This document shows, in pieces, positions 26,375 through 38,126 of a stretch of 38,126 nucleotides of DNA. A program made the position numbers and the translations under genes. Each line of letters starts with the position of its first letter. Positions within the stretch are counted from its first letter, which is position 1. Under the pieces are notes generated by a model. That model searched no databases and had not been told where the DNA came from. It saw only the letters and a list, made by a program, of their open reading frames with translations. The stretch is from Woeseiaceae bacterium (lineage in GTDB: Bacteria; Pseudomonadota; Gammaproteobacteria; Steroidobacterales; Woeseiaceae), in contig WVYQ01000006.1 in NCBI GenBank assembly GCA_011772865.1, positions 43,953 through 82,078 on the forward strand, written 5' to 3'.

Positions 26375-27928
26375 TCATTTCGGCTCACTACGCAGGCCCT
26401 GCACGAGCCCCACGCACATAATCAACAACACCACGCCGAACGGCAGGCCGATTGAAATCGTCAGCGCCTGCAGTGACGCCATGCCGCCGCCGAGCATCAA
26501 GGCAACGGCCACGAGACCGGCCAGCAGGCACCAGAATACGCGCTGCTGTACCGGCGCGTTCATCTTGCCGCCGGCCGTTATGATGTCCATGACGAGAGAG
26601 CCCGAATCGGCAGAAGTTACGAAGAAGATCGCGATCAGGAAAACACTGATCGTCGATACGACACCCGTAAACGGCAGCTGCTCGAGCATCTTGAACAAGG
26701 CAAGCTCGGGCACCGACTCAGCGACGCCACGGTAGCCATCGGTGAACAGCTGATCGAGCGCCGTGCCGCCGAACGTCGACATCCACACGAGTCCGATGAC
26801 CGTAGGAATGATCAATACCCATGTGATGAACTCGCGCACCGTGCGCCCGTAACTCACCCTCGCAATGAACATGCCGACAAACGGCGACCACGATATCCAC
26901 CACGCCCAGTAGAAAGTTGACCAGCCGTGCAGGAAGTCGGTGTCCTCGCGGCCGATCCAGTTGCTGAGGCCTGGCAGGTAATAGAGATAGTCGACAAAAG
27001 ATTTGAATATCGTTGCGATCACGACGACTGTCGGGCCGGCGATCAGTACGAACAGCAAGAGGCCCGCCGCCATTGCCATGTTGAGTTCGCTCAGTCTTTT
27101 GACGCCTTTATCGAGGCCCGCGATGACCGACACCAACGCGATCGAGATGATGACGAGGATCAGTATCACCTTGGTCGTGTTTCCGGGCGCCACGTCGAAC
27201 AGGTAGTTGAGCCCTCCGGCGATCTGCTCGGCACCGAAACCCAGCGATACGGCCAGGCCGAACAGGGTGGCCATGACGGCAACCGTATCGACGAAATGGC
27301 CGAAGGGTCCCCATACCGCGTTGCCGATCAACGGGAAGAACGCCGAACGCAAGGTCAGTGGCAGGCCACGGTTGAAGCAGAAAAATGCCAGCGACAGTCC
27401 GACGACGGCGTAGATCGCCCAGGCATGCAGCCCCCAGTGATTGATGGCCGCGGCCATCCCGACAGCTCTTGCCCTGGCAGTGTCGGCCGGGTCGATCCCG
27501 AGTGGCGGGGTCAGAGAATGCGTGACCGGTTCGAGAACACCGAAAAACATGAGGCCGATGCCGACGCCGGCTGCAAACAGCATCGCCAGCCAGCCGAGGT
27601 AGCCATAGCGTGGCTTCGCGTCGGGTCCGCCGAGCCGGATTCGGCCCAGTTTCGAGAATGCGACCGCGAGACAAAACAGCACGAACAAGTTTGCGCTGAT
27701 GACGAAAAACCAGTCGAACGTCGACGTAATCCAGACGCGCATGTCGCCGAACATAACGGCGGCCTGTTCCTGGAATAGCAGGGTGCCGATAACCAGGGCA
27801 ACGGCGAGGATCGCAGAAATGACGAATACCGGGTTATGAATATCCAGCCCGAGGATCTGGATGTTGTGTTCGCCAACCTCGTGATCGATGTTGGTCTGAT
27901 GCGGGGCACTGTGCTGTTCGTCGCTCAA
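26375..27928 (-). CDS. BCCT family betaine/choline/carnitine transporter, classical type
   Basis: A 517-residue inner-membrane transporter of the BCCT (BetP-like) family with about twelve helices. It has the glycine-rich GVGIGLMFFGVLEP of helix 3, the helix-4 aromatic box HWGLHAWAIY (W165, W170, Y173) and the family signature GWSTFYWAWWISWSPFVGMFIARVSYGR (336-363) with W341, W343, W344 and W347. These aromatic residues match the betaine-binding box of BetP. The start is a TTG (27928), preceded by a strong ribosome site GGAGGT at 5 bases, and overlaps the upstream BCCT stop (TTGA). It likely imports glycine betaine or a related quaternary amine. It is the last gene of the eight-gene cluster. 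Confidence 0.93.
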   Translation of the reverse strand: MSDEQHSAPHQTNIDHEVGEHNIQILGLDIHNPVFVISAILAVALVIGTLLFQEQAAVMFGDMRVWITSTFDWFFVISANLFVLFCLAVAFSKLGRIRLGGPDAKPRYGYLGWLAMLFAAGVGIGLMFFGVLEPVTHSLTPPLGIDPADTARARAVGMAAAINHWGLHAWAIYAVVGLSLAFFCFNRGLPLTLRSAFFPLIGNAVWGPFGHFVDTVAVMATLFGLAVSLGFGAEQIAGGLNYLFDVAPGNTTKVILILVIISIALVSVIAGLDKGVKRLSELNMAMAAGLLLFVLIAGPTVVVIATIFKSFVDYLYYLPGLSNWIGREDTDFLHGWSTFYWAWWISWSPFVGMFIARVSYGRTVREFITWVLIIPTVIGLVWMSTFGGTALDQLFTDGYRGVAESVPELALFKMLEQLPFTGVVSTISVFLIAIFFVTSADSGSLVMDIITAGGKMNAPVQQRVFWCLLAGLVAVALMLGGGMASLQALTISIGLPFGVVLLIMCVGLVQGLRSEPK

Positions 27929-29460
27929 GTGTGACCTCCAGTCGCAAGTTCCCGCGCAATCTTTGGTGCCACCCAGAGCGACGGCAGCAATATCAGCGAC
28001 ACGGGCACCGCAGTTACGACAATGAAGTACTGTAGAGCGCCGATGCCGCCCGATCCAATGGAAATCAAGATCATGGCCACGGTACCCATGATAACGCCCC
28101 AGAAGACGCGCAGCAGGGTGGGCGGATCATCGGTGCCCGTCATCACCATGGAAATCGTATAGGTCATGGAGTCGCCAGTCGTGGCGACGAATATGGTTGT
28201 CAGTATCAGGAATAGCAGCGATACCAGGAAACCGAGCGGCAACTGCTGCGTAATCGCGAGCAGCGCGGCCGGCATGTTGAACCCCTCGAATGGGACCGAT
28301 ATGGCGCCCGGGTTGGCAAGTTCGAACGCAACGCCCGAGCCGCCAACGATCGTAAACCAGAATGTCGTTACGATCGGCGCCACTACCGATACCGTCAGTA
28401 CTATCTCGCGGATACGGCGACCGTTGGAAATCCTGGCGATGAACATCGCCATCAGCGGCCCGTACCCCAGGAACCAGCCCCAGAAGAACACCGTCCACTG
28501 ATTCAGCCACGCGGTGTCGGCACGAAACGTGGCCATCGGCAAGAACTTGGCCAGGTACAAACCGGAGGCATTGATATAGCTGTCGAAAATGAATGCGGTC
28601 GGTCCGGCTATGAGCATGAATGTCATCAGTAGCAGTGCCAGGAACACATTGAACGTGCTCAGTAACTGGATGCCGCGCTGGATGCCGGTGACGGTCGAGA
28701 TCGTATACACACCGATGAGACCGAGAATAATCAGCGACTGGGTCAGGTAGGTGTTGGGGATACCGAAGAGGTCGTTGAGCCCGTAGCTCACCTGCAGACC
28801 GAGAAAGCCGATCGGCCCGACCGTGCCGGCGACGACCGCGAGCACGCAGGCCGCGTCGATGATGCCGCCATACCAGCCACGTATAACGCGTTCGCCAAAC
28901 ACCGGGTACAACAGAGTGCGCGGTTTTAATGGTAGCCCCTTGTTGTAATGCAGGTGCATGAAAACGATTGTTGTGAGGCTGCCGAGAATCCCCCAGGCGA
29001 GAAAACCCCAATGCATGTAGCTTTGCGCCAGTGCCGGATAGACAGCGGCCGATGATGACGCGGCGACGTCGAATACGGGTGGCGGCGCCACGAAGTGGGC
29101 CATCGGCTCTGCAGCAGCGAAAAACACGCCACCACCCGCCAGCAGCGTGCACATGATGATGGCAAACCACTTGAACGAGGTGATCTCCGGTTGCGCCAGG
29201 TTTCCGAGCCGCGGCTTGCCCCACGGGGATATGGCAACGACGAGGCCTATTCCAAACGTAGCGAGCAGCAGCGCTTGCCAGTATGCGCCGAACAGTCGCG
29301 TCGAAGTCGCATAGGCGGCATTGACCATCTCGGACAGGTAATCGATATTCACGATCGCTGCCACGACGAAAGCGACCAGGAATCCGCCGCTGATAATGAA
29401 CGTGGGCCAGTCGATGGCGCGTGCGGAAAAATGTTCCGGCTGGTGTTCGGTCGTTTTCAT
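27925..29460 (-). CDS. BCCT family transporter, divergent aromatic box
   Basis: A 511-residue inner-membrane BCCT protein. The family core is clear: MHWGFLAWGILGSL in helix 4, QWTVFFWGWFLGYGPLMAMFIARISNGR (321-348) and TTIFVATTGDSMTYTIS. Relative to BetP and to the neighbouring transporter it differs at the ligand box. Helix 4 keeps W151 and W156 but has L159 in place of Tyr, and helix 8 has F330 and Y333 where classical members have Trp. Helix 3 also reads GGGVFFAAAEPM instead of GxGIGLMFxG. It therefore likely carries a different zwitterion or uses a different coupling ion. It starts 2 bases after the DUF3726-like stop and overlaps the next BCCT start by 4 bases. Confidence 0.92.
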   Translation of the reverse strand: MKTTEHQPEHFSARAIDWPTFIISGGFLVAFVVAAIVNIDYLSEMVNAAYATSTRLFGAYWQALLLATFGIGLVVAISPWGKPRLGNLAQPEITSFKWFAIIMCTLLAGGGVFFAAAEPMAHFVAPPPVFDVAASSSAAVYPALAQSYMHWGFLAWGILGSLTTIVFMHLHYNKGLPLKPRTLLYPVFGERVIRGWYGGIIDAACVLAVVAGTVGPIGFLGLQVSYGLNDLFGIPNTYLTQSLIILGLIGVYTISTVTGIQRGIQLLSTFNVFLALLLMTFMLIAGPTAFIFDSYINASGLYLAKFLPMATFRADTAWLNQWTVFFWGWFLGYGPLMAMFIARISNGRRIREIVLTVSVVAPIVTTFWFTIVGGSGVAFELANPGAISVPFEGFNMPAALLAITQQLPLGFLVSLLFLILTTIFVATTGDSMTYTISMVMTGTDDPPTLLRVFWGVIMGTVAMILISIGSGGIGALQYFIVVTAVPVSLILLPSLWVAPKIARELATGGHT

Positions 29461-29462
29461 GA

Positions 29463-30209
29463 TTACGCTTCCCCTGCGCCGCGACGAGATTGTTCGGTTG
29501 CAGCGACGAGAATCGTTTCGGCAGTCGCAGACAGCGTGGCGAGGAGGTCGTCGCTGACCGCAAGACCATGCTCGATTGCCGCCTGGTAATGCGTCTTCAT
29601 GTCAGCCGCGGAGACATGGCAGGCGCATGCGGAACGCACGTCGCCATCGGCAAATTCCGCCAGGATCGACTCCAGTTGCTGTTGCTGCTCGTGGCAGGCG
29701 AAGTCAAGTGACGTCTCGCTCGCGCTATGTCTGGGCTTTGTCTGCATTCGTCGATAATCCGGGGTACCGCACTTTGTGTCGATTGTTGCGATGTGTTGGT
29801 ACTTGCTGTCGGCCCAGTAAGCTACAGCGCCGGCGCCACGTTGCGCACACAACTCGAGGGCCGGCACGATCGCCATCCGACTATAGCACTGCTGTACTTT
29901 GAGCCGGCCAAAGCCCTCCTGGCCCAGCAGCGCCATGGCAAGATCGGCAATAGAACGGCCGCGTGCAAGCATACTGCTGCCTCTGGCATCCAGTGTCATG
30001 ACGTCATTGTCGATAGCCGTGATCTCCAGTCCGCCCGCGACCTTGCCAAGGCGTTGCCAATGTTCCTCGACCAGTTCGAGACCCCGCATGCCGTGAGATT
30101 CCAGCCATACAGCGGCTCGGGCGGCATCTTCGTAATCTGCCTGGCAATACCCCAGTCCCTCAAACGCCCGCTTGAGCAACGACGTCAGCTCATTTATCGA
30201 GACGTTAAT
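29463..30209 (-). CDS. DUF3726-like protein of unknown function (probable ATT start)
   Basis: A 248-residue soluble protein without signal peptide or membrane helices. Its N-terminus, NVSINELTSLLKRAFEGLGY then EDAARAAVWLESHGMRGLEL, resembles DUF3726 proteins, which I recall beginning with a VSLNE-like strand one or two residues after Met. In this frame no ATG, GTG or TTG lies at that point; the codon there is ATT (30209-30207), with an AAAGGCGG ribosome-site-like stretch a few bases upstream. The ATT shares one base with the previous gene's TAA (ATTAA). A TTG ten codons downstream would cut into the conserved part. It sits between an unknown 576-residue protein and two BCCT genes. No catalytic motif is evident; several Cys occur in its second half. 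The start and family call are moderately sure. Confidence 0.65.
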   Translation of the reverse strand: MNVSINELTSLLKRAFEGLGYCQADYEDAARAAVWLESHGMRGLELVEEHWQRLGKVAGGLEITAIDNDVMTLDARGSSMLARGRSIADLAMALLGQEGFGRLKVQQCYSRMAIVPALELCAQRGAGAVAYWADSKYQHIATIDTKCGTPDYRRMQTKPRHSASETSLDFACHEQQQQLESILAEFADGDVRSACACHVSAADMKTHYQAAIEHGLAVSDDLLATLSATAETILVAATEQSRRGAGEA

Positions 30210-31935
30210 TGAGCCGCCTTTGTTGCATTGTCGGCATAACCGGGAAGTACCAGTCGTCTGCGAAGTCGGCGCCGATGTCGTCTGCCAGCGGGGCACCCTG
30301 GAACATCGTGTTACGCACCCACAAGCGCGATTTCGGGTCGAACTTGCTGACACCGAAGAACGACAATTTGCAACGCAGCAGATGAATGGGAAGGACATCG
30401 GCATCGAGAAGGTTGGTGCGAATATCGCCGTAGGCCGATTGGGTCAGCGACTGCACCCTGCGCAGGGTGCTGCGCAGTTCCGGGAAACGGATGGCAAATT
30501 CTGCAACCGATTGGCAGGCGCCTGCTTCGATCGAAGCGCAAATGAGGTCGTAGCATTGCCGTACATCATAGGCGACCGCCAGGGGCATTGCCTTATCCTC
30601 GCCAGGATCCACGCCACGCTGGCCGAGCCTCGGCTCGGACTTCTCCATCGACCGATACCAGAATACATCGCGACAGTGCGGCTCGGAAAAGTCGATGTCC
30701 AGCGCCCAGTCATAGTGGTTCTCTATCAATGCCTTCGTGTCTGCCAGCGATTGTCCAGGCATCAGTTCGAGGGACTCGTCAACACAAAGCGCATCTTCGA
30801 GTTCGTCGGTCAGCTCGGGATACAGTTCCATCAACAGCGAGTTGATGAGTTCCTGGGTCTCCGGGCTCACACATTGCGATGCATGCTCGACGAGTTCGGC
30901 CCAGTCCAAAAGTTCGCGGGAACCGGCCCAGTCGTGGATGTCGTCGAGTTCCCCGATCACCGTGGCATTACATTTGTTTTGCAGTTCGTTGTCCGTCGCG
31001 ATTTGGCGCAGGTGCAGCGATGCCTTCTGCAGCAGGCACTGCAGATAGCCGCGATTCTCGGCGGTAGGGGATCCGTACCGGATCACGCGAGCCAGCGCGG
31101 TCTCGCGCACCTCGACCCAGCGGCTGATCAACTGCGGGTGATTTATCAGGAAGGGCGCCATGCCGAGGCCCGTGGCATTACCGATGCCGAAGTAGCGTTT
31201 GATCGCAGCGTCCATTTTGACGGCCGTGCCGGGCGCACGGGCGTGTGCGATATGGTCGGCCTGGGCGAGACTGAACTCGCGAATCATGTAGCAGGTGAAC
31301 ATCTCGGCGGCGAAGGGCCGGGCGAAGTCAGGGTGCGTTGAGCGCACTTTCAGCCAGTCGGCCATTCCGAACTTGCCGCTGCCATAAACTGCGGTCGTGC
31401 GGTACAGGTAGCCGATGCGTGCGATGGTCTCGAGTGCGGGCTGCCGGCCGGCGGCGAGCTCGCCGATTACGTAGTCGAAGTTGCGGGAACTCTTGTTGGC
31501 GCGCGACAACACGATGCAGCGTGCGTCGACGCGGCCGGCTTCCTGCAATGGCACATTGGCCCGCAGCATCTGCATCTGTTCGTCATCGACGTCGCCCGCA
31601 CAGAGCGTTACGGTCATGTCCCACTGGTCGGCGATGACGCGGTCGCTGCGCCTGGCGGGCTCGAGGTAGTCGGCGAACACGACGAAACTGAAACGGCCGT
31701 GCGGGGCATCGATCGTGTAGATCGCCGTGCCGTAACCCTCTGCATCCAGGTCCCATGTCTTGCAGTGAATCTGCCAGCGCTCGTTCATTACATGGCGCAG
31801 AAGAATGCGCATGAAGCTCAACCGATACGGGTGCAGTGAGCCCAGCCGCTCGAGATCCAGAACCGTGGACGCAGGGCGCAGCTGCAACGGCGTCGTGGCC
31901 TGGTCATGCGCCGGAGTTTTACCTCGGCCGGGCAT
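30205..31935 (-). CDS. Conserved-looking 576-residue protein of unknown function
   Basis: A large soluble protein with no signal peptide or membrane segment. I do not recognise a named domain. Stretches that look conserved are LHPYRLSFMRILLRHVMNERW (about 34-54), GYGTAIYTIDAPHGRFSFVVFADYL, LRANVPLQEAGRVDARCIVLSRANKSSRNFDYVI, YLYRTTAVYGSGKFGMADW, FGIGNATGLGMAPFLINHPQLI, and near the end FGVSKFDPKSRLWVRNTMFQGAPLADDIG (quoted as motif markers). The invariant-looking Arg, Asn and Gly residues suggest an enzyme or nucleotide/ligand-binding protein. Its ATG directly follows the M19-homologue TGA, and its TAA overlaps the DUF3726-like start, so it is an integral part of the cluster. I infer a role with DUF3726 in handling the imported substrate. 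Confidence 0.7.
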   Translation of the reverse strand: MPGRGKTPAHDQATTPLQLRPASTVLDLERLGSLHPYRLSFMRILLRHVMNERWQIHCKTWDLDAEGYGTAIYTIDAPHGRFSFVVFADYLEPARRSDRVIADQWDMTVTLCAGDVDDEQMQMLRANVPLQEAGRVDARCIVLSRANKSSRNFDYVIGELAAGRQPALETIARIGYLYRTTAVYGSGKFGMADWLKVRSTHPDFARPFAAEMFTCYMIREFSLAQADHIAHARAPGTAVKMDAAIKRYFGIGNATGLGMAPFLINHPQLISRWVEVRETALARVIRYGSPTAENRGYLQCLLQKASLHLRQIATDNELQNKCNATVIGELDDIHDWAGSRELLDWAELVEHASQCVSPETQELINSLLMELYPELTDELEDALCVDESLELMPGQSLADTKALIENHYDWALDIDFSEPHCRDVFWYRSMEKSEPRLGQRGVDPGEDKAMPLAVAYDVRQCYDLICASIEAGACQSVAEFAIRFPELRSTLRRVQSLTQSAYGDIRTNLLDADVLPIHLLRCKLSFFGVSKFDPKSRLWVRNTMFQGAPLADDIGADFADDWYFPVMPTMQQRRLN

Positions 31936-32919
31936 TCAGGTGTCCTGCCGCGTCTCGAACGCGGCGCCGAAAAATCTCAGCCAGTTAAGCCCCATTACCT
32001 TGCGCACGTCGTCGTCACCAAAGCCGGCCTTTTTAAGGCCCTGCGCAAGGTTGGAGAAGTCTTTACAGCTCGCGAACCATTCGGGCTGGCGCGGCCAGTC
32101 CTTGTTGTCCGCCGATCCTTCGCCGTAATCGGCGCCGGCTGTCCAGCGGCCGGAGCGCATCCATTCGAGAACCTGATAGTCCCAGTTCAGGCACAGGTCC
32201 GAGCCGATGCCGAGGTTGTCGATGCCGATAATCTCTGCGGTCTCGGCAGCCATGGCCGAGAACTCGTCGAGCGTGCAGTCGCTGCCATTCTTGAGGTGGA
32301 ACGGGTACAGGCTGAGCCCGAGCATGCCGCCCGATTCGCCCAGTGCGCGCAGCACCGTCGTCGACTTGTTGCGCAGCGCATCGTGAAAGAACGACGGATT
32401 GGCGTGCGTAATGGCGATCGGCCTCTCCGAAAGTTCCATGGCCTCGAGCGTCGAGCGCTCCGCGCTGTGCGACATGTCAATGACCATGCCGACGCGGTTC
32501 ATTTCGCGAATGACTTCCTTGCCAAATCGCGTGATTCCGCTGTCACGGGACTCGTAGCAACCCGTGGCGAGCAGGCTCTGGTTGTTGTAGCTCAGCTGCA
32601 TGATGCGTACGCCGAGCTCGTGAAAGATCTGCACATAGCGCAGGTCGTCCTCGATGGGCGAGCAGTTCTGGAATCCGAACACGATGCCGACGCGCCCTGA
32701 CTGCTCTGCGGCAAGCACATCGTCGGCGCTGCGCGCGTGCAGGATGAGATCGCCGTGCTGGCGAAACAGCCGTTGCCAGTCGCCGATGTTGGCCAGCGTT
32801 TCGCGAGTATTTTCCCAGTAAGCTATGGTGACGTGAATTGCCGTAATACCGGCGTCTTTGGCTGCCTGGAAAAGCTCTCGATTCCAGTTAACGTACTGTA
32901 GTCCGTCGATGACAATCAT
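31936..32919 (-). CDS. M19 (renal dipeptidase-like) family protein with altered metal site
   Basis: A 327-residue soluble protein of the M19 membrane dipeptidase fold without signal peptide. Family landmarks are NNQSLLATGCYE, GMVIDMSHSAERSTLEA (H151), PIAITHANPSFFHDALRN (H172, R183), LGIGSDLC and MGLNWLRFF. The N-terminal metal motif HxD of true dipeptidases is replaced by DGLQYVNW (5-12), and the usual bridging Glu position reads FGFQN (Q84). This matches a subgroup seen beside dimethylglycine/glycine-betaine catabolic genes in pseudomonads (PA5396 type), not classical dipeptidases. It may be a mononuclear hydrolase on a methylated amine derivative. It starts 9 bases after the aldehyde dehydrogenase stop and abuts the next gene. 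Confidence 0.85.
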   Translation of the reverse strand: MIVIDGLQYVNWNRELFQAAKDAGITAIHVTIAYWENTRETLANIGDWQRLFRQHGDLILHARSADDVLAAEQSGRVGIVFGFQNCSPIEDDLRYVQIFHELGVRIMQLSYNNQSLLATGCYESRDSGITRFGKEVIREMNRVGMVIDMSHSAERSTLEAMELSERPIAITHANPSFFHDALRNKSTTVLRALGESGGMLGLSLYPFHLKNGSDCTLDEFSAMAAETAEIIGIDNLGIGSDLCLNWDYQVLEWMRSGRWTAGADYGEGSADNKDWPRQPEWFASCKDFSNLAQGLKKAGFGDDDVRKVMGLNWLRFFGAAFETRQDT

Positions 32920-32928
32920 CGGGTCCGC

Positions 32929-34374
32929 TCAATAGGGCAGGCTGTAAGTGGTCTTGACGACCGTATAGAACTCTTGCGCATACTGACCTTGCTCGCGCGG
33001 GCCATAGCTCGATGCCTTGCGGCCGCCGAACGGCACATGGTAGTCGGTACCTGCCGTGGGCAGGTTGACCATGACGCAGCCCGACCTGGAATGCCGCCGG
33101 AAGTGGTTGGCATGCTTCAGGGACGTCGTCATGATGCCGGCCGTGAGGCCGAACTCGGTATCGTTCGAAACCGCCAGCGCCTCATCGTAGTCGGCTACCT
33201 TGATCACACAGGTAATTGGCCCGAAGATCTCCTCCCGGTTGACGCGCATGTCGTTGGTTGTGCCGGTGAATAACGCCGGCGTCATGAAGTAGCCTTCTGT
33301 GTCCAGCGTCGGCGTGTCGCCTCCGCATTCGAGAACAGCGCCTTCATCCTTCGCGAGTTGCAGGTAGCCCAGGTTTTGCTCGAGTTGCCGGGCATCGACA
33401 ACGGGGCCGATCTGGGTTTGCGGCTCGAGTGCGTGACCGACAACGAGCTCCCGCATCGCTTTTTTCATGCGTTCGACGAACTCGTCGTGGATGCTTTCCT
33501 CGACCACGAGCCTCGACGACGCGGTGCACTTTTGACCGGTGCCGAAGAACGCCCCGTTGATGGCGCACTGCACAGCCAGGTCGAGATCGGCATCCTGCAA
33601 TACGACGAGTGCATTCTTGCTGCCCATCTCGAGCTGTACGCGGGTCATATTGTCGATGGCATTGCGAGCGATCTGGCGGCCGACGGCGACAGAGCCGGTA
33701 AACGAAATGGCGTCCACGTCACCTGCGCGCGTCAGTGCGTCGCCAGTGGTCGACCCCGGTCCCGTCACGAGGTTGAACGCGCCAGCGGGCAGGCCGCTGC
33801 GGCTGATGATCTCGGTCAACGCCCAGGCGCTTGCAGGCACCAGTTCGGCCGCTTTGAGAACGACCGTGTTGCCGAATGCCAGCGCCGGCGCGATCTTCCA
33901 GGCGGCAACGGCCGTCGGAAAGTTCCACGGCGTGACGAGGCCGACCACGCCGAGCGGCTCGCGCGTGACGTCGACGTCCACGCCGGGACGCACCGACGCC
34001 GCGTGTTCGCCCATCTGGCGCAGCACTTCGGCGCCGAAATATTGGAAGAACTGACCGGCGCGGCCTACCTCGCCGATCCCCTCAGCGAGCGGTTTGCCTT
34101 CCTCGCGGCTCAACAGGCGGCCGAGTTCGTCCTTACGCGCGATTAATTCGTTGCCGATGCTGTCGAGTATGGCCTTGCGTTCCTCGAGCCCACTCTGCGA
34201 CCAGCCTGTAAACGCATCACGCGCCGCGTCGACGGCCTGCAGCGCCTCATCCGGCGTGGCGCTGGCATAGTGGCCAATGATGTCGCTGGTGTCGGAAGGG
34301 TTCACATTTGTGACTGTGTCGCCTCCCTCTGTCCACTCACCGCCGATGTAGTTGCAAAATACGTTGTCGGTCAT
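32929..34374 (-). CDS. Aldehyde dehydrogenase, 2-ketoglutarate semialdehyde dehydrogenase-like
   Basis: A 481-residue cytoplasmic NAD(P)+-dependent aldehyde dehydrogenase. Catalytic residues are all present: PWNFP (N151), the general base in QLEMGSKNA (E249) and the nucleophile in GTGQKCTASS (C283). The pattern NPSDTSDIIGHYA, REEGKPLAEGIGEVGRAGQFFQYFGAE, LEMGSKNALVVL and the end PFGGRKASSYGPREQGQYAQEFYT resembles enzymes that oxidise 2-oxoglutarate semialdehyde (2,5-dioxopentanoate) to 2-oxoglutarate, as in glucarate, arabinose and hydroxyproline degradation. The ATG follows GGGAAAC by a suitable distance. Next to an imine reductase of the DpkA type it fits an imino-acid catabolic route. Substrate assignment is by resemblance only. 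Confidence 0.88.
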   Translation of the reverse strand: MTDNVFCNYIGGEWTEGGDTVTNVNPSDTSDIIGHYASATPDEALQAVDAARDAFTGWSQSGLEERKAILDSIGNELIARKDELGRLLSREEGKPLAEGIGEVGRAGQFFQYFGAEVLRQMGEHAASVRPGVDVDVTREPLGVVGLVTPWNFPTAVAAWKIAPALAFGNTVVLKAAELVPASAWALTEIISRSGLPAGAFNLVTGPGSTTGDALTRAGDVDAISFTGSVAVGRQIARNAIDNMTRVQLEMGSKNALVVLQDADLDLAVQCAINGAFFGTGQKCTASSRLVVEESIHDEFVERMKKAMRELVVGHALEPQTQIGPVVDARQLEQNLGYLQLAKDEGAVLECGGDTPTLDTEGYFMTPALFTGTTNDMRVNREEIFGPITCVIKVADYDEALAVSNDTEFGLTAGIMTTSLKHANHFRRHSRSGCVMVNLPTAGTDYHVPFGGRKASSYGPREQGQYAQEFYTVVKTTYSLPY

Positions 34375-34401
34375 CTTGTTTCCCGTTTGCCTGGCAGCAG
34401 C

Positions 34402-35424
34402 TTACGCCGAGCCGGATGGCTCGCAAAGCGCGAGTATTGAATCATGGACCTTGGCGGATAGCTTGACGCCGGCCGATGCCGTCTCGCGGCGGTTACTGTA
34501 GCGCCGTGCGCTGGGCAGCCGGGAACCCGGTTGTGCTTCGATCTGGGCGAACAGCTTTTCTGCGTGCGCGGCCCAGCCTTCGCTGTCGCCGAACAGCTGC
34601 GGATCCATCGCAATGATCAACTCACCGCCGCTCGGCGGGCCGCCGTCGTTATTGTCGCGCTCGGCCGCCTCGAAGCTGAAACACTCGCCGATCAGGGCGC
34701 CAGCAAAGAGTTCGATCATCATGGCGATCGACGAGCCTTTGTGGCCTCCGAACGCCAGCAACGCGCCGTCGAGGACCTCGTTTGGGTCCGTCGTTTCCCG
34801 ACCGTCTTTGTCGACGCCAACTCCAGCGGGCAGGGCTTTGCCTTCGCGGGCTGCGAGCATGACCTCGCCACGTGCCATGACGGATGAGGCCTGGTCGAAT
34901 ATCACGGGTGGGTTGTCTTCCCGCGGCCAGCCGAATGCCAGCGGGTTGGTGCCATAAAGGGGCTTCGAGCCACCCGCCGGTATGACCGCGGGTTTGTATG
35001 ACACACAGGCCAGCGCGCACAGGCCCGCCTCGGCGATTGGCTCGATCTCGGTCCACAACGCGGCGAAATGGTGGATGTCCGTCAGCGCCAATGCGGCAAT
35101 GCCCGATGTTTTCGCAGCATCGATCAACGGCTCACGGCCGCATGCCAGCGCAAGCGGCGCGAAACCACTGTCGCCGTCGACACGCACCACGGCCCCGGCA
35201 ATCTTGTCGACCGTAGGTTCGGCGTGGCCGTTGACTTTGCCACTCTTGAGGGAAGCGACATAGCCGGCGAGGCGCATGAGGCCATGCGAATGACAACCGT
35301 CGCGCTCGGCGGCCGTAATCACATCGGCGACGGCAGCCGCGTTGGCAGCGTTGCAGCCATTGTGGCTCAGTACGCTTGTCGCAAGTGCGTGGACTTCGTC
35401 CAGGGTGAATGTCAGATCGCTCAT
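34402..35424 (-). CDS. Ldh family (DpkA-type) cyclic imine / 2-oxo acid reductase
   Basis: A 340-residue cytoplasmic NAD(P)H oxidoreductase of the malate/L-lactate dehydrogenase-2 (LDH2) fold. Motifs: CHSHGLMRL (44-52), ALTDIHHFAALWTEIEPIAE (His pair 118-119), GTNPLAFGWP (158-167), FDQASSVMARGE, and GALLAFGGHKGSSIAMMIELFAGALIG. The HHFAALW pattern with AFGGHKGS favours the delta1-piperideine/pyrroline-2-carboxylate reductases (DpkA) over true malate or lactate dehydrogenases. Such enzymes reduce delta1-pyrroline-2-carboxylate to L-proline. It begins 12 bases after the sulfotransferase stop and ends 27 bases before the aldehyde dehydrogenase ATG, so it is in the cluster. Confidence 0.87.
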   Translation of the reverse strand: MSDLTFTLDEVHALATSVLSHNGCNAANAAAVADVITAAERDGCHSHGLMRLAGYVASLKSGKVNGHAEPTVDKIAGAVVRVDGDSGFAPLALACGREPLIDAAKTSGIAALALTDIHHFAALWTEIEPIAEAGLCALACVSYKPAVIPAGGSKPLYGTNPLAFGWPREDNPPVIFDQASSVMARGEVMLAAREGKALPAGVGVDKDGRETTDPNEVLDGALLAFGGHKGSSIAMMIELFAGALIGECFSFEAAERDNNDGGPPSGGELIIAMDPQLFGDSEGWAAHAEKLFAQIEAQPGSRLPSARRYSNRRETASAGVKLSAKVHDSILALCEPSGSA

Positions 35425-35436
35425 AGGTTGATTCCG

Positions 35437-37461
35437 TCAGTCGTCAATCGGATACCGTTGCAAAACCGGTCCCAGCGCATGTTTCAGCGGATCAAGGTAG
35501 GGTTCGAAATTGCGCCACTGCTCCAGCCCGGCCTTGTAAATGGGTTGCCGGACCTGTTCGGAACTCGGCGTGCGTACCGATCGCTCGGTGCGATGAAATT
35601 TCAGACAGGCCTCTTCGAAGGGCAGCCCGCAGTGCTCGAGTATCCTGCGCACCTGCGTTTCGAGGTCGGCCACGACATCCTCGTACTGCACGCGCAGGAT
35701 CTTGCCGGGCAAGACCGCGTCCCAGTGGTCCATTAGCTCGACGTAGTCCCTGTAATACCTGCCAATCTCGTCGAGGCCATAGGTGAACTCCTGGCCGCTT
35801 GCGAATAGCTGTTTGAAACCGCTGAAACAGCAGGCCATGGGGTGGCGGCGCGCGTCGATGATAGTTGCATTCGGCAGGATCAGGTGAATCAGGCCGATGT
35901 GACGGAAGTTGTTGGGCATCTTGTCGATGAAAAACGGCGCGTCCTGGCGATGTACCCGGGTGTCTTCGATAAATGCCTCGCCGAATTCGCGCAGTTTATC
36001 GACGGGTATGTCGGCAAGTATCTTCGGATACCGCGGATCCTCGTCCTTGTACCGGCGGCCATCGAGCCGACTCGCAAGGGCCGGTATATTCGGCAGCTCC
36101 AGCGTGCCATCGACCTGTGAGTGCGAAGCGAGAATCTGCTCCAGCAGCGTCGAGCCCGCTCGCGGCAGGCCCACAATGAAGATCGGGTCCGGTGCATTGC
36201 AGCCGCTGCCTGCGCGCTGCGCAAAAAACGCTGTGTCGCAGACCTGCCGCTGCATCTGCAGCCGCTCCGTTATTGCGTCGGACTTGTACTGCAGTTCGTC
36301 TTTCTTCAAGGCGTTGCCGCGCAGGTAGAAATCTGCCGCCGCCGCGAAGTCTTCGCTGTCCTCATAGTGCTTGCCGAGGGCGAAGCAGACGTGAATACGA
36401 TCTTCGACCGAAGTCGAAGGCAGTGACTCGGCCCAACGCATCGACTCTACTTCAGAATCCGAAAAGCGGTAAGTTTTGAGGTTGGCAAGACTCCAGTATG
36501 CGTCTCCATAATCGCGCCGCGCCAGGTAAGAAAGCCGGTAAGACGCGATGGCCTCGTCCAGCCGGCCAATGGTTTTGAGTGCATGCCCATGCACCAGGTG
36601 CAGCCCCGCGTTCTTGTCAGCTTGTTTTGCGAGGCTCTCGTATATTTCCAGCGCCTCATCGTAATTTCCAATCGCGACGCACTGGTTGGCGTAGGCCGCG
36701 AGATAATCAGGGTTGCCCGGTTGCGCCTCAAGGAGCAGTTTCGCTTGCTGCAGGGACTCGGCGTATTTCTGGCGCCGATACAGGACATTCATGTAATCGA
36801 AACGCGCAAAGCGGTTGTCCGGCTCGAACTCCAACGCACTCTCGAGAATGAATTCGGCATCGTCGAGCACGCCAGTTTTTACGCCCAGGTCCGCCAGCAA
36901 GCGCATGCCTTCTATGTTCTGCGGATTCTCCTTCAGGAACGCCCGGCACAGGCGCTCGGCCTTGAAGAGTCGCTTCTCGCTCATCATGTTGCGAACGCTG
37001 AGGAGCTCCGGTGGCAACGCGGCGAGGCGCCGGCGATTCTCTACAACTTCGGAAAGCAGCCTCTCATTGTCTTCTTCGATGGCGATATTTTCGAGCGCCT
37101 GCCAGCTCGCGAGCAGGGAATTGTTGCGAGCAACGGCTTTTTTGTATGCGGTCTTGGCTGCCGCGGTATTGCCCAGCGCGGCTTCCAGGTGCCCCTGTTC
37201 CTGCCAGGCACGGCCATAGGCGGGGCGCAGTTGCTGCAACTTGCTCAGTGCGGCGCGAGCTCCCTCGAATCGCCCGGCGTACCGCAGGCTGACGGCGAAC
37301 ACGTACAGCGCGTCCTCATGCTCGGGCATCTCGCGCAACAGGTCGCGCAGCACGTGGCATGCGTCCTCGGGCCGGCTGGCCGACAGCAAGGCCTTGGCCG
37401 TTGCGATGGCTTCTTCCGGTTGCGGGTGATCCTGTGAGGCCGGCTGGTTTTGCATTGACAT
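35437..37461 (-). CDS. TPR-repeat sulfotransferase family protein
   Basis: A 674-residue protein with two parts. Residues 15-400 are tetratricopeptide-like helical repeats (for example AWQEQGHLEAALGNTAAAKTAYKKAV, NAGLHLVHGHALKTIGRLDEAIASYRLS). The rest is a sulfotransferase domain with the PAPS 5'-phosphosulfate loop FIVGLPRAGSTLLEQIL (428-444), the 3'-phosphate motif ARRHPMACCFSGFKQLF, the YEDVV element ILRVQYEDVVADLETQV and the end RTPSSEQVRQPIYKAGLEQWRNFEPYL. Proteins of this type are common beside TonB-dependent receptor genes, as here. The acceptor is unknown. Two ATGs (37461, 37455) are possible and no strong ribosome site is seen. A terminator-like hairpin lies only 18 bases upstream, leaving no room for a separate promoter after it. 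Confidence 0.9.
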   Translation of the reverse strand: MSMQNQPASQDHPQPEEAIATAKALLSASRPEDACHVLRDLLREMPEHEDALYVFAVSLRYAGRFEGARAALSKLQQLRPAYGRAWQEQGHLEAALGNTAAAKTAYKKAVARNNSLLASWQALENIAIEEDNERLLSEVVENRRRLAALPPELLSVRNMMSEKRLFKAERLCRAFLKENPQNIEGMRLLADLGVKTGVLDDAEFILESALEFEPDNRFARFDYMNVLYRRQKYAESLQQAKLLLEAQPGNPDYLAAYANQCVAIGNYDEALEIYESLAKQADKNAGLHLVHGHALKTIGRLDEAIASYRLSYLARRDYGDAYWSLANLKTYRFSDSEVESMRWAESLPSTSVEDRIHVCFALGKHYEDSEDFAAAADFYLRGNALKKDELQYKSDAITERLQMQRQVCDTAFFAQRAGSGCNAPDPIFIVGLPRAGSTLLEQILASHSQVDGTLELPNIPALASRLDGRRYKDEDPRYPKILADIPVDKLREFGEAFIEDTRVHRQDAPFFIDKMPNNFRHIGLIHLILPNATIIDARRHPMACCFSGFKQLFASGQEFTYGLDEIGRYYRDYVELMDHWDAVLPGKILRVQYEDVVADLETQVRRILEHCGLPFEEACLKFHRTERSVRTPSSEQVRQPIYKAGLEQWRNFEPYLDPLKHALGPVLQRYPIDD

Positions 37462-37577: not shown

Positions 37578-38126
37578 TCAGAAATGGTACGAGAAGCGTA
37601 CTCCAAGCGTTCTCGGGCGGTTCGTTGTGATGCGCTCGAAAAAGTCCTGGCGATTAATGTGCAGCTGTGCGCGCTCGTCGGTCAGGTTAGCCCCGAACAA
37701 CTCGACTCCCCAACCATCGGTCGGGTGCTCCCAGCCCAGCGAGGCGTTAACGACTGTCCAGCTGTCCTGCGTCGTATTGGGCTCCTCGGGCGTGTCGACG
37801 AGCGAGTTGATGGATTCACCGGCATACCTGATGCCCAGTTGACCATAGCCCATCCAGCCGTTGCTGAGGACCCAGTCGTAGCGTGCCCGTGCGGTCATCT
37901 GAAATTCCGGCGTCAGCGGCAACTGGGTGCCGGCGTCGGCGACCACGATGTCGAATGCCGGGTCGACAAACACGAGTTCCGTGTCATTGAACGAAGCGCC
38001 CGCGTACAGGGTCCACCTGTCGGAAGCGGACCAGATCAGGTCGGCTTCGATACCCCGGATCTCAGCATCGCCGCCATTGTCGATCAGCGTAAAGATCGAG
38101 ATATTCTGCGAGTCGAATTGCGAGAC
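37578..38126 (-). CDS. TonB-dependent receptor, C-terminal part (5' end outside window)
   Basis: This is the last ~182 codons of an outer-membrane TonB-dependent receptor; the frame is open to the end of the window. It shows typical late-barrel features: GIEADLIWSASDRWTLYAGASFNDTE (in pieces), LTPEFQMTARARYDW, WMGYGQLGIRYAGESIN, WTVVNASLGWEHPTDGW, the near-terminal VELFGANLTDERAQL and an aromatic end RFSYHF. The residues preceding the end (RPRTLGVRFSYHF) are the usual 'RxxGVxxxxxF' finish. The ligand cannot be inferred from this part. Its transcript should end at the hairpin at 37479-37508, before the TPR-sulfotransferase gene. Confidence 0.92.
   Translation of the reverse strand, partial: VSQFDSQNISIFTLIDNGGDAEIRGIEADLIWSASDRWTLYAGASFNDTELVFVDPAFDIVVADAGTQLPLTPEFQMTARARYDWVLSNGWMGYGQLGIRYAGESINSLVDTPEEPNTTQDSWTVVNASLGWEHPTDGWGVELFGANLTDERAQLHINRQDFFERITTNRPRTLGVRFSYHF

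Follow-up and report, generated by a model that had tools for sequence, protein, structure and literature searches.

We analysed a 38,126-nucleotide stretch of a Woeseiaceae genome (contig WVYQ01000006.1 of assembly GCA_011772865.1; hereafter the window) and focused on seven minus-strand genes at positions 26375-35424, in the order LDH2, an aldehyde dehydrogenase (ALDH), a peptidase family M19 homolog, a 576-residue protein that we call P576, a DUF3726 protein, and two BCCT transporters, BCCT1 and BCCT2. The cluster is one member of a widespread operon, in its LDH2 form. We propose, with moderate confidence, that the operon serves to break down an N-methylated pyridinium betaine. Homarine (N-methylpicolinate), a methylated ring compound of planktonic origin, is the most likely one. 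A first-pass annotation had described seven tightly packed minus-strand genes separated by -4 to 27 bases, and open reading frame (ORF) coordinates and Pfam bear this out: gaps in transcription order are 27, 9, 0, 1, 2 and -4 bases, and Pfam assigns a family to every cluster protein but P576. Its broader idea of betaine and imine chemistry was right in kind, as the genes belong to a conserved catabolic operon with a BCCT transporter, a DpkA-type reductase and an ALDH resembling 2-oxoglutarate semialdehyde dehydrogenase (KGSADH).

Results

A conserved gene set surrounds P576

We scanned 163 P576 loci with our own profiles: sets of 15, 80 (the best contig matches), 12 (from plasmids) and 55, together with the window. 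Removal of 15 loci redundant at 95% P576 identity left 148. An earlier clustering had registered no P576 in four of 96 loci (L054, L061, L111, L115); the P576 profile was positive in all 163. Profile thresholds were self-chosen, that for DUF3726 being low at 20 bits, and the profiles for LDH2, SoxA, RidA and others were built from the same loci in which they were counted.

Within 9 kb of P576, DUF3726 genes occur at 136 of the 148 loci and M19 genes at 135, followed by ALDH (100), BCCT (86), LysR (79), RidA-type (48), LDH2 (34), SoxA (10) and SoxB (7). At the 110 loci with at least 6 kb on each side, the counts are 105 for M19, 100 for DUF3726, 82 for ALDH, 71 for LysR, 70 for BCCT, 43 for RidA-type, 23 for LDH2, nine for SoxA and six for SoxB. 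Control DNA totalling 150.8 kb contained no M19, DUF3726, LDH2 or RidA gene, one ALDH and one BCCT; this control is small (eight stretches, six chosen by sox-type hits and one by a BCCT hit), and it cannot serve as a control for the sox and BCCT counts. We conclude that these genes are associated beyond chance. Co-occurrence of P576, DUF3726, BCCT and M19 genes, which the first-pass annotation had put forward as a check, thus recurs among the 148 loci, for BCCT less often than for DUF3726 and M19. The usual order in Vibrio and Psychrobacter is a divergent LysR gene, then RidA, ALDH, M19, BCCT, P576 and DUF3726.

Counting the window's genome each time, P576 homologs are present in 16 of 369 genomes sampled at class level, in 14 of 107 from the window's family, and in 38 of 397 in a phylum sample for which completeness of at least 90 was requested. 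Another single family (f225) has P576 in 181 of 395 genomes; it is probably that of marine Roseobacter relatives, because Roseobacter plasmids carry P576. A plasmid collection holds P576 in 168 of 72,556 records, mostly from Sinorhizobium (64) and Phaeobacter (58). A contig scan yielded at least 592 pattern matches, at least 566 of them confirmed, and the best 80, which we retained, span Gamma-, Alpha- and Betaproteobacteria, Bacillota and Chloroflexota. A distant copy lies on a plasmid of the haloarchaeon Natrinema versiforme, which carries (L126:9091-11621) ALDH, P576, a DUF3726-like gene and BCCT, with no M19 match.

P576 has an unrecognized fold and a recurrent partner

P576 has no match in Pfam (E ≤ 0.01) or NCBIfam (E ≤ 0.001); NCBIfam likewise has none for the M19 or DUF3726 protein. 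A sequence search of the PDB with P576 returned four matches, all at chance level. Its predicted model, from 72 sequences, has a pLDDT of 90.1 and a pTM of 0.90. Compared with 350,542 PDB chains, the model gave no Foldseek match at E ≤ 0.001, the best reaching E 0.28; there were 111 matches at E ≤ 10, and the highest probability among the 50 listed was 0.12. The predicted fold is unrecognized by Foldseek, which is not proof that it is new. Thirty residues are invariant in the 146 of 148 P576 sequences long enough to align. Six of them are Arg and two are Trp, whereas none is His, Cys or Lys; one His, at position 266, is retained in at least 97% of sequences. The absence of an invariant His or Cys argues against a metal site built on such residues, and says little about a cofactor.

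From their gene arrangement, P576 and the DUF3726 protein appear to form one unit. Among 50 DUF3726-position genes downstream of P576, 26 overlap its stop by four bases (four further entries are M19 or RidA frames and lie outside the 50), in the window a single base separates the two genes, and in Mesorhizobium they are fused into an 814-residue protein with Pfam DUF3726 at residues 596-660. We set the DUF3726 start in the window to the GTG at 30203 because homologs begin near M[KI]VSxNEL; from the first ATG (30404) the ORF would overlap P576 by 200 bases. The DUF3726 protein weakly matches the N-terminal part of Ldh_2, with a profile match to yiaK (1nxu) at E 3.4e-5, and is by this measure apparently a distant relative of that part.

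We tentatively suggest that P576 and its degenerate Ldh_2-like partner represent a new structural class of enzyme, which would open pyridinium rings from outside the recognizable oxygenase, flavin and metal-binding families and whose imine would have two exits, LDH2 or RidA. We regard this as possible rather than probable.

LDH2 and RidA do not share a locus

The closest solved relative of LDH2 is DpkA (1wtj/2cwf/2cwh), at 282.6 bits versus 137.8 for the next, which agrees at the level of sequence with the first-pass identification of a DpkA-type reductase. DpkA is a delta1-piperideine-2-carboxylate reductase and also an N-methyl-L-amino acid dehydrogenase. It is described as an imine reductase used for the reductive methylamination of pyruvate, giving N-methylalanine (PMC6237917). 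Unlike DpkA in that role, LDH2 sits in a catabolic operon, where its proposed substrate is N-methyl-2-iminoglutarate.

RidA proteins hydrolyze imines and enamines, and the relatives found here include, by name, 2-iminobutanoate/2-iminopropanoate deaminase and 2-aminomuconate deaminase. LDH2 (34 loci) and RidA (48 loci) never occur together among the 148 (Fisher test ignoring relatedness, p 3.5e-7; 2.0e-6 for the 110 loci). The P576 tree requires at least six changes between LDH2 and RidA states, with 86 of 148 rows labelled; this is a quick tree with no mixture model, and RidA was added by hand from annotation for L125, L128, L130 and L131. Where SoxA or SoxB is nearby (10 loci), seven loci carry LDH2 and none carries RidA. 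A second P576 cluster in Phaeobacter inhibens (L125:9016-16000), of the RidA type, directly adjoins dimethylsulfoniopropionate demethylation genes.

The ALDH and the M19 hydrolase

The best NCBIfam model for the ALDH is 2,5-dioxovalerate dehydrogenase at 509.9 bits, under the 750-bit cut-off, and another scores 473.2 bits against a cut-off of 770. The first-pass description of a KGSADH-type enzyme stands as a likeness to the best model and not as family membership. The M19 protein has no usual N-terminal HxD motif, whereas M19 dipeptidases carry N-terminal HxD metal ligands. Its nearest solved relative, 2i5g, is labelled 'amidohydrolase', and the N-terminal IVIDGLQYVNW aligns with IVIDGLIIAKW of that protein. 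It may be an N-formyl or amide hydrolase.

Transporters near P576

The glycine-betaine aromatic box of BCCT proteins is given as WWY in transmembrane segment 4 (TM4) and WW..W in TM8 (PMC12093977). BCCT2 has this box (WWY/WWW) and BCCT1 does not (WWL/WFY); the form WW[LVT]/WFY is found in 71 of 95 BCCT proteins near P576. The first-pass assumption of BCCT import is supported. Vibrio natriegens BCCTs altered at the TM4 tyrosine are reported to show no glycine betaine uptake, expression being unchecked according to the authors, and two of the three are also altered at the second and third TM8 tryptophans (PMC12093977); these may or may not be orthologs of the BCCT proteins near P576. We also considered BCCT2, a canonical betaine carrier, as the substrate-defining transporter and dismissed it, WWYWWW occurring in just seven of the 95 proteins. 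In Shinella and in one Aminobacter the Ldh gene is followed by an ABC transporter of the glycine-betaine type, and the displayed stretch contains no BCCT. ABC transporters near P576 are of the ProU, Pot or branched-chain-amino-acid type.

Some relatives adjoin N-methylglutamate dehydrogenase-type genes

SoxBDAG-type genes adjoin the cluster in Ruegeria sp. TM1040, Phaeobacter and Shinella, accompanied in TM1040 by a helix-turn-helix regulator whose Shinella counterpart is annotated as GlxA-family. Compared with the TM1040 alpha subunit, a Paracoccus yeei plasmid copy that neighbors dimethylamine monooxygenase genes and a GlxA-type regulator shows 65.5% identity. A Rhizobium plasmid copy next to glnT, FMN glutamate synthase and GlxC, in the layout of the N-methylglutamate pathway, shows 54.9%. 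These settings argue that the TM1040 subunit is of the N-methylglutamate dehydrogenase (Mgd) type. Ruegeria pomeroyi has an AraC-type regulator, TmaR, beside mgdABCD (PMC13390433). In Shinella, purU is also near the cluster, and on a Pseudosulfitobacter plasmid (L202:2312-4551) genes for N-formylglutamate deformylase and formimidoylglutamate deiminase stand beside Mgd-type genes.

Contig 22 of the window's own genome encodes a SoxA homolog (47% identity) together with SoxB-like and SoxG-like genes, and MttB-like genes lie close by. On that contig (L140-L142), genes of the MttB-type methyltransferase-like, DMGDH-like FAD/GcvT and sox-like kinds are clustered, which suggests a large methylated-amine or betaine metabolism.

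Gene layout of the window

The transcription unit probably begins upstream of LDH2, with the TPR-sulfotransferase co-transcribed (Table 1). With the window counted, a sulfotransferase homolog lies within 9 kb of P576 at 15 of 148 loci (at 14 of them in the same orientation as P576), and a homolog of the TonB receptor end lies on P576's strand within that distance at 10. The window ends with its contig, at contig position 82078, truncating the TonB receptor gene. From sequence reading, contig C40 of this genome (L145) also has a TonB receptor and a TPR protein of a similar kind, next to a BCCT gene and one resembling MttB. At another locus (L024:4418-6669), genes read as class III aminotransferase-like and beta-keto-acid-cleavage-like adjoin the P576 cluster.

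Table 1. The cluster and its upstream flank, with positions in the window
Feature	Position	Strand	Length (aa)	Assignment
BCCT2	26375-27928	-		Pfam BCCT; canonical glycine-betaine box WWY/WWW
BCCT1	27925-29460	-		Pfam BCCT; non-canonical box WWL/WFY
DUF3726 protein	29463-30203	-		Pfam DUF3726, E 4.8e-12; Ldh_2, E 6.7e-4
P576	30205-31935	-	576	No Pfam or NCBIfam family
M19 hydrolase	31936-32919	-	327	Pfam Peptidase_M19, best stretch from profile position 39
ALDH	32929-34374	-	481	Pfam Aldedh
LDH2	34402-35424	-	340	Pfam Ldh_2, E 2.2e-99
TPR-sulfotransferase	35437-37461	-		Pfam Sulfotransfer_3 and TPR; 12 bases upstream of LDH2
TonB-dependent receptor, C-terminal end	37578-38126	-		Pfam TonB_dep_Rec_b-barrel; cut by contig end

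Discussion

A proposed pathway for homarine

From these genes and their neighbors we infer the substrate, each of the reactions, and the opening of the ring by P576. The TonB receptor and BCCT1 would import the substrate, and P576 with its DUF3726 partner would attack the ring and open it. The M19 protein would then hydrolyze the resulting N-formyl group, and ring carbon 6 would be lost as formate. By chemical reasoning, N-methylpicolinate that has been opened and has lost this carbon would give a five-carbon N-methyl imino diacid, and it is with this loss that the ALDH's likeness to 2,5-dioxovalerate dehydrogenase, the DpkA-type reductase and the Mgd neighbors fall into line. The KGSADH-like ALDH would oxidize the five-carbon N-methyl-imino semialdehyde to N-methyl-2-iminoglutarate, the N-methyl imine of 2-oxoglutarate; LDH2 would reduce this to N-methylglutamate, and an Mgd encoded elsewhere in the genome would convert N-methylglutamate to glutamate and a one-carbon unit. 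In the RidA-type relatives the imine would be hydrolyzed to 2-oxoglutarate and methylamine. An N-methyl imine of 2-oxoglutarate is what both RidA and the Mgd-type sox partners fit.

The bacterium carrying the cluster is probably marine, and homarine is described as an abundant marine betaine (PMC8269262). A later correction reports that the standard was contaminated and homarine concentrations overstated (PMC10134881), so its true share is lower. Ruegeria pomeroyi is reported to have depleted homarine within hours (PMC12817926), and Mgd takes part in homarine catabolism according to a paper citing 2026 work on homarine (PMC13390433). The published homarine pathway may have Mgd in common with ours, Mgd-type genes standing beside the cluster in some relatives, and it too concerns marine bacteria. 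A conserved homarine pathway in environmental bacteria is reportedly the subject of Ferrer-Gonzalez et al. 2026 in Nat Microbiol (doi 10.1038/s41564-026-02313-7), to go by the title, and its operon is said to be named homABCDER, a name not confirmed in the literature searched. In literature on DUF3726, homarine, Mgd, and sets of M19, BCCT, RidA and ALDH genes, we found no recognizable description of this operon. The published operon may be this very one, with or without the LDH2/RidA split and the upstream TonB and sulfotransferase genes.

Several observations weigh against homarine as the substrate or against the scheme built on it. Ruegeria pomeroyi, a homarine model, is reported to grow worse on homarine than on trigonelline (PMC8269262). 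The ALDH falls under every NCBIfam cut-off among the 25 models listed. Sox-type genes lie within 9 kb at just 10 of 148 loci, three of these 10 have no LDH2, and in the window's genome the sox-type genes are on another contig than the cluster. On the P576 tree, an independent-pairs test of LDH2 versus RidA gives no significant result (median p 1), and 66 of 148 loci have neither gene at the thresholds used; at least four of these carry an annotated RidA missed by the profiles and no annotated Ldh gene, which fits the split, and the remaining 62 are assigned to neither type. Rieske-type genes are found 6-9 kb from P576 at seven of 148 loci. Finally, Sinorhizobium, Neorhizobium and Aminobacter share a diverged clade in which P576, a DUF3726-like or hypothetical gene, M19 and RidA are combined with a different ABC transporter. 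P576 thus probably serves more than a single substrate, and the same core acting on a second compound is suggested. Loci of this clade in rhizobia and Aminobacter (L124, L130, L131) have an IclR-type gene upstream.

Alternative substrates

The same chemistry could act on another heterocycle, such as trigonelline, picolinate or some other pyridinium or imidazolium betaine, in which case homarine would not be the principal substrate. The presence of P576 in soil and plant bacteria, in Bacillota and in a haloarchaeon, together with the variety of ABC transporters near it, speaks for this, which we nevertheless consider unlikely: the Mgd-type neighbors point to a five-carbon diacid bearing N-methyl at carbon 2, which by chemical reasoning homarine could supply and trigonelline would not, and trigonelline is already served by the TgnA/TgnB route (PMC8269262). 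The P576 locus on Sinorhizobium meliloti pSymB was entertained as a trigonelline locus and dismissed, the trigonelline locus being attributed to pSymA.

Proline or hydroxyproline betaine, suggested in the first-pass annotation, would pass through two demethylations and ring opening to 2-oxoglutarate semialdehyde, oxidized by an ALDH. We now think this substrate quite improbable. A BCCT, a KGSADH-like ALDH and a DpkA-type reductase are all present, and Rieske genes occur near the cluster in a Phaeobacter and on a Pseudomonas plasmid, in the latter with mandelate-racemase-like genes. Yet where homologs of the two Rieske query proteins lie within 9 kb of P576 (seven of 148 loci), they are at least 6 kb away and in six of the seven on the opposite strand, and homologs of two mandelate-racemase-like proteins are found at just two of 148 loci. 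Pfam identified no Rieske demethylase or epimerase gene among the window genes scanned, the BCCT1 box is not of the betaine type, and such a route would seem to leave P576, M19 and RidA with no role. Least probable of all, and only a slim prospect, is a true M19 dipeptidase in a cluster degrading an N-methylated peptide or betaine-amino acid conjugate, which would suit M19's place among the two most constant neighbors (135 of 148 loci) but conflicts with the missing HxD and the amidohydrolase label of its best relative, and explains neither P576 nor the imine enzymes.

The route proposed for homarine resembles known ring degradations in its logic. Actinobacterial pyridine degradation by PyrA-PyrE also proceeds by ring opening, formyl removal by a hydrolase and semialdehyde oxidation, with a flavin monooxygenase as the ring-opening enzyme; unlike that enzyme, P576 matches no known family or PDB fold in our searches. 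The TgnA/TgnB system likewise catabolizes an N-methylpyridinium carboxylate (PMC8269262). It differs in that no Pfam oxygenase family is found in the nine window proteins scanned and, by our reasoning, in carbon skeleton and end products.

Implications

With a marker gene set for homarine breakdown, the flux through homarine could be traced in genomes. Should the pathway have been published already, attack on the ring by a protein of unrecognized fold and the choice between N-methylglutamate and methylamine as the outcome would still be of interest. If P576 does open pyridinium rings, a new ring-opening class would be present in about one in ten of the Pseudomonadota sampled, and in close to half of the genomes sampled from one family.

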